The translations under genes were made by a program, and so were the position numbers. 25,566 nt of DNA, taken from positions 1 through 25,566 of the IMG/VR virus record IMGVR_UViG_3300033571_021968; one strand, 5' to 3'. This DNA comes from a virus. The notes under the pieces were generated by a model. It did not search any database. It saw nothing but the letters and a program-made list of their open reading frames with translations, and was not told where the DNA came from. Every line of letters starts with the position of its first letter. Position 1 is the first letter of the stretch. Shown here in pieces: positions 14,951-25,566 of this stretch.

Positions 14951-15157
14951 ATGATCGATCCGACAGATTCGCCGGCTGATGCGGCCGCTGATCGGCTGCT
15001 CTACGCAGCAACCAAGGTGATTGCCCAAGAGGCCGACATGGCATTCAAGACGCAAGAAAACACGATCATCTGTAGGGTGAAGACATTCACGGTTGCAGCA
15101 CCAAGCCGAGACTTCACACTGACCGCGCGACCGCGCACCCTTCTGCAGACGGCATGA
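14951..15157 (+). CDS. Plus-strand hypothetical protein, first of a two-gene pair
   Basis: The 68-residue frame starts at ATG 14951, with GGTGA six bases upstream inside a hairpin. A second possible start at ATG 15038 has a better site (AAGAGG) and would give a 39-residue product beginning MAFKTQENTIICRVKTFTVA. The C-terminal part is beta-prone and ends ARPRTLLQTA. Its TGA overlaps the next gene's ATG (ATGA), so the two are coupled. No family is recognised. The pair runs against the surrounding head operon, so it must have its own promoter or be read from another transcript; none is evident. Confidence 0.6.
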   Translation: MIDPTDSPADAAADRLLYAATKVIAQEADMAFKTQENTIICRVKTFTVAAPSRDFTLTARPRTLLQTA

Positions 15158-15477
15158 GCATTTCCCTGAACACCATCGATCCGGCGCGGTTCAGCGCCAA
15201 GGAGCCGGGAGAAATCATCACCCTGGCTTTCGACTTCGTGGAGGTGGTGGGCTCACAAGCCTTGAGCGCGCCTCAAGTGACGATCAGCGTCGTGAGCGGC
15301 ACCGATGGCAGCCCGAGCTCGATGCTCAGCGGATCGGCAGTGGCGCTCGGCAGCAAAGTGACCCAGCGCGTGATCGGCGGCTTGGCTGGCGTGACCTACA
15401 AGCTGCGAGCCCAGGTCGACGCAGCAGACGGCAGCCGGTACGTGCTGGCGGGGCTGTTGCCCGTGCGGGTGGCCTGA
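15154..15477 (+). CDS. Plus-strand small phage structural-type protein
   Basis: The 107-residue protein has an N-terminal PGEIITLAFDF segment followed by an Ig-like beta pattern: PQVTISVVSGTDGSPSSMLS, VTQRVIGGLAGVTYKLRAQV and DGSRYVLAGLLPVRVA. Proteins with the same order (SGTD..PS.MLSG..., V.Q.V.GG.AGV.Y.L, DG..Y.L...LPV) are common beside phage tail and fibre genes, where they are sometimes named fibre-tail adaptors. Here the gene is on the plus strand among minus-strand head genes, which is unusual. It ends in a palindrome shared with the stop of the converging gene. Confidence 0.68.
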   Translation: MSISLNTIDPARFSAKEPGEIITLAFDFVEVVGSQALSAPQVTISVVSGTDGSPSSMLSGSAVALGSKVTQRVIGGLAGVTYKLRAQVDAADGSRYVLAGLLPVRVA

Positions 15478-20465: not shown

Positions 20466-20806
20466 GGCCGTACCTCCACCCGCACGAACCCGCCGACCTC
20501 GTCCAGCAGCTCGGCGGCCAAGGTGAAGTGCTGGTCGTCCACCTGCAGCACGTCAGCCAGGCCGTCGAGGCCAGCCTTCATGCTGGCGATCAAGTTGTCC
20601 AGGTCGCGGCGACGGCGGTCGGGCGGTACGAAACAAAGCACCAGGGAGAGCTTGCCAGGCTGGATAGCCATGGCACCCTGGGATGCTGCCGTCCAGGCGC
20701 AGACGGCCCTGTAGGCCTTCTTCGCGGCGGCGTGCTTGCGCCAGTGCTTGCGCACGTTCGGATTCAGCGTGCTGGGCGGCCAGGGCAAGATGAAATTCAC
20801 GCGCAC
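20453..20806 (-). CDS. rusA: RusA-type Holliday junction resolvase
   Basis: The 117-residue product (GTG 20806; GTG 20800 overlaps the helicase stop by GTGA and is an alternative) starts with the RusA opening FILPWPPSTLNPN. It carries the acidic active-site cluster at DLDN (D68, D70) and VDD (D90, D91) with the intervening KAGLDGLADVL segment of the family. Length matches E. coli RusA (120). The enzyme cuts four-way junctions formed in phage recombination and replication, giving linear or concatemeric DNA fit for the terminase encoded next. The gene links replication and packaging blocks. Confidence 0.9.
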   Translation of the reverse strand: MRVNFILPWPPSTLNPNVRKHWRKHAAAKKAYRAVCAWTAASQGAMAIQPGKLSLVLCFVPPDRRRRDLDNLIASMKAGLDGLADVLQVDDQHFTLAAELLDEVGGFVRVEVRPCRA

Positions 20807-22188
20807 ACCACCGCAAACCGCCGCGTGCGGGTCAATGCCACGTAGGCCAGGCGGTTGCGCAGCTGGACCTCACGGCTCTTCTGGAAGCTGTCCCAAGCCA
20901 GCACCACCGCGTCGAAGGTGCTCCCCTGGCTCTTGTGCACCGTCATGGCGTAGGCGTAGCGCACCGGTGCGAAGCGAGCCTTCAGAGCCCATCCGGCACG
21001 CGATGCCTCACTTGCTTGCCGGCGCAGAGCCTCGCGCTCGCTGCCGTGCACCATCTGCTCGCGCATCTTCAGCCGGCGGTATTCGGAAAAGCACTCGCTG
21101 ATGTCGGCCTGGCACTGGCGCTGGTCGATAGCCACCCAGCACACCAGGCGGCCGCCGCCCTCGGCCTCGAGCTCGAGCTTGTAGGCCGCTCGGGCCGGCT
21201 CGTCGGGGTGTGGCTGCTCGATGCAACTCACCACCGTCAGCAGCGCTGAGTTGCGCACCGCCACGTTCGTGCGCTTGAGCAGGCCTTCGGTGCCCGGCAA
21301 CGCGGCCGTGAAGCCGTCCTGCGCCATCAGCAGCGTGCCTTTGGGGTAGTCGCCCTGCCCTGGGTACACCATCGCGTGCACGTTGGCATTCACGGCCTGT
21401 ACCGTGGCGTTGTCGAACGCCAGGGCGCGCGTGTCCTGGCCGTGGGCGATGGCGTCGGCCACCAGGTGCGAGATCTCCACCACCCCGCCGGGCTGCATGG
21501 CCAGGAAATCCTGGTCGCCGTCGTGCAGCTGATCGCTCATCACCTGCAAGTCGAACGAAGTGCCGGCCTGGATGCACTGCCGGGCGGCGGTGGCCAGGCG
21601 GATGATGGGGTTCTCCTGCGCCTGGCGCACCACCTCGGTCAAGGCCCAGTGCAGCGGCACCTGCTCGCCGAAGGCAGGCGAAAAGGCCGGGCCCTGCTCA
21701 GTGCGGCGGGCTCCGGGTTCCTGATCGACAGGTGGCAGCTGGGCTGGGTCGCCCACGAAAAGCAGCCTGCAGCGCCCGCGCTTGGAAAGCGCCGTGGCGA
21801 ACATGCCAGCGCTCAACATGCTGGCCTCGTCGATGATGGCCAGGCTGAAGTCGCGCAGACTGCCCGGCTCGCCGGTGTCCTCGGTCTGCTGCTGTCCATC
21901 GGGCATGTCCTTGACCTTCAGCGCCAGCGCCGACTGCAGGGTGGCCGTTTCCACGCCTGCGGCGCCCAGTTTTTCGGCCAGCACCGCCAGTGCCTTGTGG
22001 GTGGGTGCCAGCACGATGATGCTCAACATGTCGGCGGCCAGGGCGCCCACCACGTGGGCAACCACCGTGGTCTTGCCCACGCCGGCATAGCCTGAAAGCG
22101 TGGCCATGGAGTGCCCGGTCTGGCCGGCGCAGAACGCCAGCATTTGGTCTGCCACGGCCTGCTGGGCGGGGGTGAGGTTGATGCCCAT
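20797..22188 (-). CDS. Superfamily 1B DNA helicase (RecD2/Dda-like)
   Basis: The start is ATG 22188 (MGINLTPAQQAVADQMLAF), two bases after the preceding stop; the longer frame is shadow. The protein has 463 residues. Visible motifs are Q-like LTPAQQ, Walker A GYAGVGKTT (33-41), Walker B IIDEAS (118-122), motif III GDPAQLPP (146-153), motif V AYAMTVHKSQGSTFDAVVL and motif VI LAYVALTRTR near the end. These identify a 5'-3' helicase of the RecD/Pif1/Dda group. With the primase-polymerase it would unwind DNA at phage forks or remodel recombination intermediates. It is probably translated with the small membrane protein upstream. Confidence 0.92.
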   Translation of the reverse strand: MGINLTPAQQAVADQMLAFCAGQTGHSMATLSGYAGVGKTTVVAHVVGALAADMLSIIVLAPTHKALAVLAEKLGAAGVETATLQSALALKVKDMPDGQQQTEDTGEPGSLRDFSLAIIDEASMLSAGMFATALSKRGRCRLLFVGDPAQLPPVDQEPGARRTEQGPAFSPAFGEQVPLHWALTEVVRQAQENPIIRLATAARQCIQAGTSFDLQVMSDQLHDGDQDFLAMQPGGVVEISHLVADAIAHGQDTRALAFDNATVQAVNANVHAMVYPGQGDYPKGTLLMAQDGFTAALPGTEGLLKRTNVAVRNSALLTVVSCIEQPHPDEPARAAYKLELEAEGGGRLVCWVAIDQRQCQADISECFSEYRRLKMREQMVHGSEREALRRQASEASRAGWALKARFAPVRYAYAMTVHKSQGSTFDAVVLAWDSFQKSREVQLRNRLAYVALTRTRRFAVVCA

Positions 22189-22190
22189 GC

Positions 22191-22712
22191 TCACACCCCC
22201 GCCAGCGGAGCCACCGCACCCAGCAGGCCAGCGGCCAGCAGAGCAGCACGCCAGCCAAAGGCGGCCAGGGCGTAGCGCCACTCCGTGGCTCTGCCTGGTG
22301 CATCACGCCGGGCCAGGGCCAGCTGCCAGTCCATGGGCAGGTGGTTCTCCGGGCACTCGGCCAGCGCCTCGTGGTAGCGGGCCAGCGCGTCGGCCTCCGG
22401 CAAGGCGGGCGCCTGGCGCATCAGCGCGCGCAGCTTCAGTGCGTTGGCATGCAGCCGCTCGCTCTTCACGCCATGGGCGGCGCTGGCCTCGATCAGCGAG
22501 AAGGCCAGCGCCAGCGCCGAAGCCAGCATGGCCGCCAGCGTCAGGCCCGGGCTGGGCTTGAGCATGGTGGCCGCACCCAGCATCGTGGCGGCCAAGCTCA
22601 GGGCTGCGCTGGCGTACAGGCTCAGCGCGCTCTGTCTGGCCAGCCGTTCGGCGGCGTTGAAGCGGGCTGACGAGGTTTCCCACAGGTTCTTGTCCAGGGT
22701 CTCGGGTGTCAC
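22191..22712 (-). CDS. SLATT-type membrane protein
   Basis: The 173-residue protein starts at GTG 22712 with AAGGA about six bases upstream. Residues 17-33 (RFNAAERLARQSALSLY) precede two hydrophobic helices (about 30-50 and 56-76), then VKSERLHANALKLRALM (83-99) and ARYHEALAECPENHLPMDWQ (111-130). The order R..A..R, two helices, (R/K).E..H..AL.L..L and Y..aL...ENH..(I/M)D is that of the SLATT family. A third hydrophobic stretch follows at about 146-172. SLATT proteins are proposed membrane effectors in bacterial conflict systems. No nucleotide-signalling partner is seen nearby. Its stop is two bases from the helicase start, so it belongs to the replication operon. Confidence 0.75.
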   Translation of the reverse strand: MTPETLDKNLWETSSARFNAAERLARQSALSLYASAALSLAATMLGAATMLKPSPGLTLAAMLASALALAFSLIEASAAHGVKSERLHANALKLRALMRQAPALPEADALARYHEALAECPENHLPMDWQLALARRDAPGRATEWRYALAAFGWRAALLAAGLLGAVAPLAGV

Positions 22713-22731
22713 GGTGGTCCTTCAGGTCATT

Positions 22732-22917
22732 GGTAGAGCTGTTTGTCAGTGGTAGATAGCCCTTCTCTACCGCAATTCGCAAGCATTGGCGCGGGTTTCT
22801 GGGCTACGGGAGAGCGGTGAGAGGTAGATGCTTATTACGTTTTTCTTTCCTATAGGTGATAGCGGTTCTGTCGCGGCCAAAGCCGCAAGATGTACATCTA
22901 CCCCATCTACCTCTACC
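22732..22917. repeat. Seven-copy GGTAGA/TCTACC array: candidate origin or operator
   Basis: The 206-bp gap between the SLATT gene and the primase-polymerase stop contains GGTAGA on the plus strand at 22732, 22751 and 22823, and TCTACC at 22766, 22897, 22906 and 22912. The last three are tightly packed as tandem direct repeats. Between the groups lies the most AT-rich patch of the window (about 22829-22862), with the palindrome CCTATAGG (22849-22856). A small stem GCGGC-CAAA-GCCGC is at 22873-22886. Iterated motifs beside an AT-rich patch next to replication genes fit a replication origin; an operator controlling the SLATT and helicase genes is the main alternative. No clear sigma70 promoter is seen. 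Confidence 0.6.
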
Positions 22918-22918
22918 G

Positions 22919-25180
22919 CTATTTCGTGGCGGCCACCCCGGGGTCCGGCTTCTCGATGACGAACTGCCGCGCGAAGTAGCGCTTGCCGCGCGGCGTGTTG
23001 ATGTCGGTGATCTCGTCGTCGGCCAACAGTCGGCCCAGCACCTCGAGGCGCTCCTCGCTGCTCAGCTTCTTGTAGGCCCAGATCAGCTTGGGCAAGTCGC
23101 GCTGGGCCATGCCCTCCGGGCCGGCGCGCACCAGTGCCTCGACGACTTTGCTGGCCGCATCCGGCCGGTCATCGTCGTCGCCCAGCAGCTGCACTTCGGC
23201 CAGCGTCATGTCCAGGCACTCGCGCACCAGGCGCTCGCACCAGGCCAGCATCTCCGGCCGCACGAGCGGCGCAACCGGCTCGCAGAAAGCGGCCATGGCC
23301 ACGCACAGCCGGCGCATCGTGGCGCGCGCGCCCCAGCTCAGCGGGCGCAGGTACGCTGGCAGCTTACGGCCGTGCTCGATCCAGCGCTGCTCTGCTGCGG
23401 CCAGGTCGCAGGCGAAGCGCACCACCGTGGGCGTGGCCCGGATCAGGATGCTGTCGATCTCCGGCTCGCTGGCCTCGGCCGCGTCGGCGGGCAGGCCGCG
23501 CAGCTCGCGCAGCCGGGCCGCCACGTTGGCCGGCAGCGCCGCCTGCGCGGCCACCGATCGGTCCACCCAGTCCTCGAGCTGCAGCGCTGGCACGAACAGC
23601 ATGCAGTCCAGTGCCCCGCGGCCGAACTCGGCGCGCTTGAACACCGCGCGCAGCGTGGGCTCGGCAATGGCCGCCATCAGCGTGAGGGCTGGGCGGTACA
23701 GCGTGGGCATGTGGCTGGCGGGCATGTTCTCGGGCCGCTTGGTCAGCCCGATCTCGGCCCAGTTGTCCAGCGCGATGTCCTTGGCCGCGTGCACCCGCCC
23801 GGCCAGCACGCCGTGGGCGATGCTCAGCAGGCCCGAGGGCTGGCGCTTGGCCGCGGCCAGCTGGTCGCCCCAGTCGTCGGCCGCGTACAGCACACTGCTG
23901 CTGCGCACAAAGGCGCTGTACACCTGCTGCGCGCTGCCCATGCGCTGGCTGCGCACCAGGCGGCGCAGGTTGCAGTCGATCAGCGCCGTCTCGGCCGCGG
24001 TGAGCATGGGCCGCGCCTGGCTGGCTGTGGGCGTGAGCAGCCCGAAGTACAAGCTTCCCGGGTCGCCATACTCGCTCACGTAGCGCCGCCCAGCGCAGGT
24101 GGCGGCCAGCGCCAGCGCCGTGGCCTGGGCCAGCAGCCCGTGGGCGTTCGGCGTGCTGTCGTACACCCAGCGCGCCAGGTCGTTCAGCCCCTGCACCGGC
24201 ATGGCCTGCAGCTGCACCCTGGGGCCCGATACGATCTCCGGCGTGGTGTTGAGCGCTCGCGGATCCGGCTGGCCTGCTGGCGCCGGCTGCGCCGACACCA
24301 GCGCCAGCGCCGGCTTCGGCCGCTGGAAACCATGCTTGTAAGCCAAGTCGAACACCGTGCCCAGCTGCACGGCCTCGCCCATCGGCTTGCGCGTGAAGCT
24401 GCGCCACACGCGCAACTGGTCCTGCGGGTCGAACTTCTCGGGGCAGGTCTGCGACCAGGCGCACCACAGCTCGTAGCCCAGAGCGCCGCCCACGTCCTTG
24501 TGCAGCGCCATGCCCACAATCACCCAGGTCTCGCGCTCGGCAGCCGGGATCATGGCCAGCGCGTTGCGGATGTCGGCCAGATCGACGTCGGAAAGCGCCC
24601 GGCCAGGTACAGCAATGGCTGCAATACTGGGGCTGGCAGGCGCAGCGCGGCTCAGATCCTGGATCCAGCCCGGCAACGGCGAAGGCACGCACTCTTCCAG
24701 AGGGTTGCTGCTGCCTTCCCAGGCGTAAGGCTTCAGGTGCGGCGGGTCGGCCAGCGGCGCGAAAGTCGGCTCGACCGCAATGTAGCCGTCGGCCTTCAAG
24801 TCGATGCCCTTGGCCAGCTTGCGCGGCAGCCGGCCGATGTCTGAAGGCGCCAGGAACACCAGGTGAAGGCCGCCACCACCGGTGAAGGCCAGCACATCGG
24901 ACTCCAGCTTGCCGTGCTCGGCCTCCAGGCGCTCCATGTCGAAGTGCCCGCCGTTGCGCGGGTCCACATCGACGGTCACCAGACCGCTGGCCTGCATGGC
25001 CACGCCGATGCCGGCCTCGGGCTCTGCCGTCCACCAGCCGGTGATCTTGTCCACGTCCAGCGTGGCGTCCAGGTGCCCGCGAGGTGCCAGCTTGCCGTTG
25101 GGCCGCTTGGTGCCCTTCAGCAGCGGAAACACATGCCAGCCGATGGCGGCGTAGGCCAGGGCAAATTCGAGCGACGTCAC
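22919..25180 (-). CDS. Primase-polymerase with PriCT-2 and DUF3987-like C-terminus
   Basis: The 753-residue protein starts at GTG 25180, overlapping the CII-like stop by GTGA. Residues 1 to about 160 form the archaeo-eukaryotic primase domain: VTVDVDPRNGG gives the metal-binding D71 and D73, GGGGLHLVF the H106, and GIDLKADGYIAVEP the third motif. About 203-285 is a PriCT-2 module (ALAMIPAAERETWVIVGMAL; LWCAWSQTCPEKFD; GTVFDLAYKHGF). The remainder resembles DUF3987, found at the C-terminus of phage and island replication proteins; no intact Walker A is obvious there. It should prime, and perhaps extend, phage DNA synthesis. All three AEP motifs are intact. Confidence 0.87.
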   Translation of the reverse strand: MTSLEFALAYAAIGWHVFPLLKGTKRPNGKLAPRGHLDATLDVDKITGWWTAEPEAGIGVAMQASGLVTVDVDPRNGGHFDMERLEAEHGKLESDVLAFTGGGGLHLVFLAPSDIGRLPRKLAKGIDLKADGYIAVEPTFAPLADPPHLKPYAWEGSSNPLEECVPSPLPGWIQDLSRAAPASPSIAAIAVPGRALSDVDLADIRNALAMIPAAERETWVIVGMALHKDVGGALGYELWCAWSQTCPEKFDPQDQLRVWRSFTRKPMGEAVQLGTVFDLAYKHGFQRPKPALALVSAQPAPAGQPDPRALNTTPEIVSGPRVQLQAMPVQGLNDLARWVYDSTPNAHGLLAQATALALAATCAGRRYVSEYGDPGSLYFGLLTPTASQARPMLTAAETALIDCNLRRLVRSQRMGSAQQVYSAFVRSSSVLYAADDWGDQLAAAKRQPSGLLSIAHGVLAGRVHAAKDIALDNWAEIGLTKRPENMPASHMPTLYRPALTLMAAIAEPTLRAVFKRAEFGRGALDCMLFVPALQLEDWVDRSVAAQAALPANVAARLRELRGLPADAAEASEPEIDSILIRATPTVVRFACDLAAAEQRWIEHGRKLPAYLRPLSWGARATMRRLCVAMAAFCEPVAPLVRPEMLAWCERLVRECLDMTLAEVQLLGDDDDRPDAASKVVEALVRAGPEGMAQRDLPKLIWAYKKLSSEERLEVLGRLLADDEITDINTPRGKRYFARQFVIEKPDPGVAATK

Positions 25181-25446
25181 TCGTCACCCCACACCAGCCG
25201 CTGCGCCGTCTCGGTGTCGGCCATTGCCTTGGAAGCGATGCGCGTCATCGCCTCGTACATCTGCGGGTCGACACACACGCGCTCGATCGGCACGATCTTC
25301 AGCCCGGCATGGGCCAGGATCAGCGTCATCTTCTCCAGGTGGTCGCTGATGAAGCGGCTGATCGTCGCCGCGCTGATGCCCATGGCCACCGCGATGGCCG
25401 CCTGAGTTGCGTCGCGTTGCACCCGCTGCAAGATGGTCGAAGTCAT
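25177..25446 (-). CDS. CII-like transcription regulator
   Basis: The start is taken as ATG 25446 (MTSTILQRVQRDATQ) because GAGAGAG lies about eight bases upstream; ATG 25488 in the same frame has no site and would add 14 residues. The 89-residue product has a helix-turn-helix at about 13-33 (AAIAVAMGISAATISRFISD) followed by LEKMTLILAHAGLKIVPIER, matching the arrangement of lambda CII (97 residues). CII activates repressor and integrase promoters during the lysogeny decision, so the phage is probably temperate. It is coupled by a GTGA overlap to the primase-polymerase, as CII precedes replication genes in lambdoid phages. Confidence 0.78.
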   Translation of the reverse strand: MTSTILQRVQRDATQAAIAVAMGISAATISRFISDHLEKMTLILAHAGLKIVPIERVCVDPQMYEAMTRIASKAMADTETAQRLVWGDE

Positions 25447-25566
25447 CTTGCGTGCTCTCTCGGCAGGGCTGACGCACAGTGCGGCCATGGAATCAGACGC
25501 TCGCGATCTTCATTGGGCCAGGAAGGCGGTGCGGCGCATGCTCATTGCCATCTTCCAGCGCATCGC
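25447..25566. other. Right edge: coding not resolved
   Basis: Two readings are possible. On the minus strand an open frame entering from the edge ends MRRTAFLAQ with TGA at 25510-25512, in the same frame as the CII-like gene, and could be the tail of a Cro-like or other early gene. On the plus strand ATG 25487 opens a frame to the edge (MESDARDLHWARKAVRRMLI...), without a ribosome site. The piece is too short to choose. Confidence 0.3.

Follow-up and report, generated by a model that had tools for sequence, protein, structure and literature searches.

What is the function of the short repeats that are clustered in the 206-bp gap between the genes for a primase-polymerase (prim-pol) protein and a SLATT_5 protein? 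The window analysed here, a linear fragment of 25,566 bp from an incomplete genome (an IMG/VR virus record), carries on its minus strand, in order, a CII-like regulator, the prim-pol gene, the gap, SLATT_5, a Dda-like helicase, RusA, terminases, a Mor-type late activator and virion genes. Since its sequence includes tailed-phage genes for terminase, late activator, virion and tail, the window is not a satellite; judged by these genes, it is a phage fragment and not a PICI. All of the called genes are on the minus strand except for two small plus-strand ORFs at 14951-15477, the second of which is weakly Gp77-like. We consider it probable (about 0.77) that the gap is the replication origin of this phage, with iterons that lie 3' of the gene for their own initiator and are bound by the C-terminal winged helix of that protein. 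The elements on which this reading draws are as follows.

25177..25488, minus strand: CII-like regulator, upstream of prim-pol
22919..25180, minus strand: replication protein, with Prim-Pol (residues 7-172), PriCT_2 (204-280), a helicase-like part and a C-terminal winged helix
22961..23164, minus strand: C-terminal winged helix, proposed iteron reader, residues about 673-740, recognition helix 708-720 (structure prediction)
22713..22918, no strand: proposed replication origin, prim-pol/SLATT intergenic region of 206 bp (L002 and L003 have a homologous region, laid out alike but with a different word)
22912..22917, minus strand: iteron 1, GGTAGA (exact count)
22906..22911, minus strand: iteron 2, GGTAGA (exact count)
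22897..22902, minus strand: iteron 3, GGTAGA (exact count)
22870..22889, no strand: G+C hairpin, TTGCGGCTTTGGCCGC on the minus strand, no T run (kept in L002 and L003)
22849..22856, no strand: palindrome CCTATAGG, the sole CCTWWAGG of the window, between the iteron clusters
22821..22860, no strand: AT-rich core, candidate melting region, 65% AT versus 34%
22823..22828, plus strand: iteron 4, GGTAGA (exact count)
22808..22813, plus strand: iteron 5, GGGAGA, one mismatch; relatives read CTCTCCAC
22766..22771, minus strand: iteron 6, GGTAGA (exact count)
22751..22756, plus strand: iteron 7, GGTAGA (exact count)
22732..22737, plus strand: iteron 8, GGTAGA (exact count)
22722..22730, minus strand: ATGACCTGA, apparent relic of an ancestral helicase start (this start follows the last iteron in L002 and L003)
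22191..22712, minus strand: SLATT_5 gene, apparent insertion separating origin and helicase (L002, L003 and L014 lack it at this place)
20797..22281, minus strand: Dda-like helicase ORF, conserved part from Met 32, about 22188

The repeat array and its counterparts in close relatives

The original prediction had claimed seven exact copies of GGTAGA in the gap, and these were found at 22732-22917. They are 7 of the 10 copies that occur on both strands of the 25,566 bp; with only 3 in the rest of the fragment, the word is not equally frequent elsewhere, and shuffled windows contain a mean of 2.8 copies in all (maximum, 8). The predicted arrangement was likewise borne out: three copies are in tandem right behind the prim-pol stop (22897, 22906 and 22912, minus strand), the first of them 1 bp past it, which places the array immediately 3' of the initiator gene, and two copies are just before the SLATT gene (22732 and 22751, plus strand). 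The three iterons behind the stop are co-oriented with the genes and the remaining ones are mostly in the opposite orientation, so that 3 exact copies on one side and 4 exact copies plus 1 near copy on the other flank a stretch of 65% AT. This is the predicted AT-rich block in GC-rich DNA (22821-22860, compared to 34% AT for the window), and it provides a candidate for the melting region that iteron origins have beside their iterons.

Some 6-mer is present at least 7 times in 4.3% of the other 303-bp windows as well, and in 206-bp windows all other 6-mers that reach such counts are C+G-rich words of coding sequences (e.g., GCCAGC and CTGGCC). The array is special by its word composition, its non-coding place and its conserved position in relatives, rather than by raw count alone. 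The GC skew of the window exhibits no clear turn at the array, and the region yielded no match in Rfam or in a nucleotide search of phage records. A conserved stem-loop origin, as in pRN1, was rejected because the region folds only weakly better than its shuffles (z = -2.0).

The two closest relatives, L002 and L003, encode prim-pol proteins that are 77-78% identical to that of the window and have an alignable gap at the same place, right behind the prim-pol stop. Their sites occupy the positions of the window sites, with GGTGGAGA or a close variant at most of them; neither gap contains GGTAGA. Of the conservation that the original prediction looked for, the array was thus kept by position and the exact word was not. 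In the 44.8-kb record of one relative, 6 of 13 copies of GTGGAGA are within 186 bp of the corresponding gap. A concerted change of sites is what would be expected if a single protein reads all of them and its specificity has shifted, and the differences between the proteins of the window and these relatives include S707N, S708T and E710D, which lie where the predicted recognition helix begins.

In L002 and L003 the last site abuts the ATG of the helicase gene, whereas in the window this ATG remains as ATGACCTGA and is followed by the SLATT gene. The relic, together with the location of SLATT next to the array, makes SLATT_5 look like a later insertion between origin and helicase, possibly a defence or immunity cargo gene.

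The replication protein as the candidate reader

Only one gene family, that of the replication protein, is present in all of the first 11 loci compared. In the window this protein contains Prim-Pol (PF09250, E 4e-27) and PriCT_2 (PF08707, E 2e-14) domains, and among the loci its parts vary, with Prim-Pol and PriCT_2 joined to a DUF3987-like, AAA_25, VapE-like or D5-like part. The original prediction had named the prim-pol as the partner of the array, which appears to be right with respect to the protein; the likely reader, however, is the C-terminal winged helix and not the catalytic domain. The prim-pol domain was rejected in this role because L021, in which a DnaB N-terminal domain takes its place, retains the word seen in its kin (CGGGACA, as in L007 and L020); L021 and L020 have the helicase part and the C-terminus in common. 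The Dda-like helicase was rejected as well, because the records of L007, L011 and L012 contain no match to it.

Comparisons among the loci point to the C-terminus. The helicase parts of L020 and L029 have 76% identity and the two loci share the core CTCGCGCGCGCATAAGG, but they differ in word (CGGGAC versus CGGCAC), and the alignment of their C-termini reaches only 46% identity, over 48 residues. Among pairs with homologous helicase parts, the word is shared by 59% where the C-termini score at least 120, by 18% at scores of 60-120 and by 5% below that, with relatedness not removed from these figures: sameness of word and C-terminal similarity correlate with each other, and both also correlate with overall relatedness. 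By comparison, each initiator appears to have an iteron word of its own, which varies between relatives in step with the C-terminal domain.

In the window, the C-terminus (residues about 673-740) is predicted to form a winged helix (pLDDT about 80; winged-helix models built on 5-9 sequences); most of its top structural hits are DNA-binding domains of the winged-helix type, none of them with E below 0.001. The predicted full-length fold is of low confidence outside of the Prim-Pol, PriCT_2 and C-terminal parts, and a PDB sequence search with the full protein returned nothing meaningful. On the basis of these alignments and models, the winged helix at the C-terminus of the replication protein is apparently what reads the private word. 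In the same protein, the helicase-like part (residues about 381-392) seems to have lost its Walker A motif (LLTPTASQARP versus GKSGSGKE in L011 at the apparently equivalent place, aligned by eye), and the clade with this apparent loss encodes a Dda-like helicase as a separate gene, located downstream of the origin.

A natural specificity series may exist in E. coli. L081 and L083-L088, from E. coli chromosomes and one plasmid, are near-identical RepA-type elements with arrays of GTGAGG, GTGGGG or GTGGGC, and the array word covaries with the presence of Asn or His, and with nearby substitutions, in the winged helix. Specifically, proteins with ...EMKNFRRWL occur with AAGTGAGG, those with ...E(M/I)KHFRRWL with AAGTGGGG-type arrays and one with ...DTKHLKRWL with AAGTGGGC; in these satellite-like elements, Asn goes with GTGAGG and His with GTGGGG. 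The sets comprise few independent changes, and their regions are so AT-rich that the array test yields p values of only 0.07-0.18. Judged by gene content, the elements look like capsid-carrying PICIs themselves. L079, from a Salmonella plasmid record, encodes a RepA-type protein that is 61% identical to that of L081 over residues 1-436, followed by an unrelated C-terminus, and has a different word (GCCGCA); the alignment suggests a swap of the end domain.

Private words and a shared core in other loci

Dozens of other phages and prophages appear, by sequence comparison, to have the same layout with a different word. The nearer prim-pol relatives all have a private-word array after the stop, and the words in prim-pol relatives other than L002 and L003 are GGTCAGTGG, GGAGACC, CGGGACA, GTAGACA and TGTGACA. 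Each of these arrays exceeds its shuffles, and all but that of the window also exceed other windows of the same locus (k=6). Genes for RepA-like helicase proteins, in viral contigs and in genomes related to a betaproteobacterial assembly, are followed by CGGCACA, CCGGACA, ACGGAAG, TTCCCGAA, GAGACA, GACACA and more. Rhizobium phages 16-3 and RHph_X2_25 have the word GCGTGACA, and in 16-3 the 330 bp that follow p101 contain 13 of the 17 copies in the genome.

Altogether, 35 of the 83 replication proteins fetched have a strong array after the stop, defined as a top 6-mer count of at least 6 at p <= 0.05, and about half of the 83 have no significant array by this crude test. Among other gene ends, used as a control, 12 of 132 passed at p <= 1/30, all 12 with only 4-6 copies. 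By such tests, an array directly after the gene is absent in the more distant prim-pol phages (among them Vibrio 1.005, Pseudoalteromonas, Dickeya, Alcaligenes and Caulobacter), and single-protein scans of viral contigs matched only the contigs from which the proteins came.

Many of the regions have a palindrome in common. CCTWWAGG is found in 20 of the 83 regions after replication genes versus 1 of 401 other gene ends, with 9 occurrences elsewhere in the loci; each of 19 further palindromes with a comparable composition is found 0-3 times. CCTWWAGG might serve in melting or as a hairpin, or possibly as a terminator, with no terminator-like site called in the window, and a literature search on it returned nothing relevant. 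L043, L044 and L048 have private words and a common stretch, GTAAGTCATTGAAATC(A/G)TT, behind the replication gene, which is a second type of common core. In L091 (E. coli), GGTGAACAG-type words occur about 9 times after a gene for a D5-type primase; these repeats resemble P4 iterons.

These loci might belong to a widespread modular class of origins in phages and their satellites, in which a private word and the C-terminal winged helix of the initiator are a fast-evolving lock and key, set on unrelated helicases (DUF3987-like, RepA/AAA_25, VapE, DUF927 and D5) and accompanied by a prim-pol, a DnaB-N or no primase domain, with the CCTWWAGG core common to many. We hold this generalization tentatively, at somewhat less than even odds. 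If it is true, the turnover of words would make co-resident elements compatible in replication, and a readable recognition code would allow origins to be predicted from protein sequence. To our knowledge, the origins of most phages are unmapped; the generalization would provide a rule for finding them, i.e., behind the replication gene, where a private word surrounds CCTWWAGG or an AT-rich core, with a reader that can be named. The change of word with a few residues of one helix in the E. coli elements (Asn/GTGAGG, His/GTGGGG) would offer a natural series for the co-evolution of initiator and origin. The loci speak against the origin layout as a hallmark of satellites and suggest that satellites and phages share a module. 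This kind of origin is already known, and it is the breadth, the turnover of words and the shared core that are of interest.

Alternative readings and known origins

The interpretation of the gap draws on what can be read from the sequence, namely the array, where it lies, how symmetric it is, its positional conservation, the concerted shift in word and the predicted winged helix; from these we infer that binding, melting, priming and the start of replication occur at the array. The prim-pol protein would be the initiator, and its winged helix would bind the GGTAGA iterons, which in opposite orientations flank the AT-rich stretch with its CCTATAGG palindrome. Binding would load the initiator and lead to opening of the AT-rich core, whereupon the prim-pol domain would make the first primers and the neighbouring Dda-like helicase would unwind the DNA. 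An iteron-like origin beside the prim-pol gene, as the original prediction had it, seems to be the best reading in view of the same architecture in dozens of relatives and, by analogy, in Sfi21 and PICIs.

The array might instead be an operator, at which the replication protein, the CII-like protein or another regulator controls transcription of the SLATT-helicase-packaging operon. Its location between co-directional genes and the CII-like gene upstream are compatible with such a role, and initiators often repress their own operons too. We nevertheless consider an operator unlikely. The array is kept whatever gene follows it (in L002, L003 and L014 this is the Dda helicase, in L007, L011 and L012 a different gene); the promoter and terminator scan of the region called none, with nothing like a sigma-70 promoter; the lambda CII site TTGCN6TTGC does not occur in the region and has its only match in the window far off, at 25407; and the symmetric clusters around a shared palindrome, along with the Sfi21 and PICI origins, favour an origin.

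It is also conceivable, at quite long odds, that the prim-pol domain or PriCT_2 reads the word as a template motif for priming. A precedent exists in the NrS-1 polymerase, which primes at an 8-nt motif, TTTGGTTA, whose two genome copies may be its origin (PMC8718748, PMC7102993). That motif has 0 copies in the window, L021 keeps the word of its relatives in the absence of a prim-pol domain, and words change with the C-terminus while the rest of the protein stays alike. Least credible of all is a partition, incompatibility or packaging site, or a chance recurrence of the word with no function. Repeat clusters beside replication genes can be centromere-like sites; the scanned genes of the window include no ParA or ParB, the terminase is located elsewhere, and chance would hardly account for concerted turnover at homologous sites.

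The preferred reading, a phage origin with iterons behind the gene of their initiator, has counterparts in several known systems. The NrS-1 polymerase resembles the window protein as a phage Prim-Pol, one that needs a short specific motif; it differs in that the motif is read by a helix-bundle domain and is not arrayed. The alpha protein of P4 is a primase-helicase whose winged helix binds short origin repeats (PMC4234260), much as proposed for the window, although its primase domain is of the bacterial (Toprim) type. Plasmid pRN1 requires a sequence element located 3' of the prim-pol gene, and both its ORF904 and Bordetella phage BIP-1 (Berkner et al. 2014, PMC4234260) share with the window a prim-pol initiator, a C-terminal winged helix and an element directly 3'; for these a long stem-loop rather than iterons was proposed as the origin, whereas in the window iterons flank a core and folding is weak.

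Closer still are the Streptococcus phages Sfi21 and DT1, in which a non-coding origin lies right after a primase gene that itself follows a prim-pol gene. In the Sfi21 record (NC_000872), the feature at 34487-34784, after the primase gene, is annotated as the replication origin and contains an AT-rich core surrounded by 7 copies of AGTAAC that face in both directions; no CCTWWAGG was seen in the region. Unlike the window, Sfi21 has its prim-pol and helicase-like primase as separate genes, a different word and a Gram-positive host. In PICIs the origin is immediately 3' of the initiator gene and always has two iteron sets around an AT-rich region, and the rep-ori of EcCICFT073 replicates a plasmid (Fillol-Salom et al. 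2018, PMC6092414). PICI and SaPI initiators have primase and helicase parts, and the islands use several iteron sequences, as do the loci compared here. The window has this architecture in position, in its flanking iterons with an AT-rich middle and, by comparison, in an initiator-specific word; it differs in belonging to a tailed phage rather than to a satellite that relies on a helper phage to supply its particle, and in having an initiator of the archaeo-eukaryotic type (Prim-Pol plus PriCT_2). Given the match with the PICI, Sfi21 and pRN1 origins, the gap of the window probably works as they do, in a genome that is not itself a PICI.
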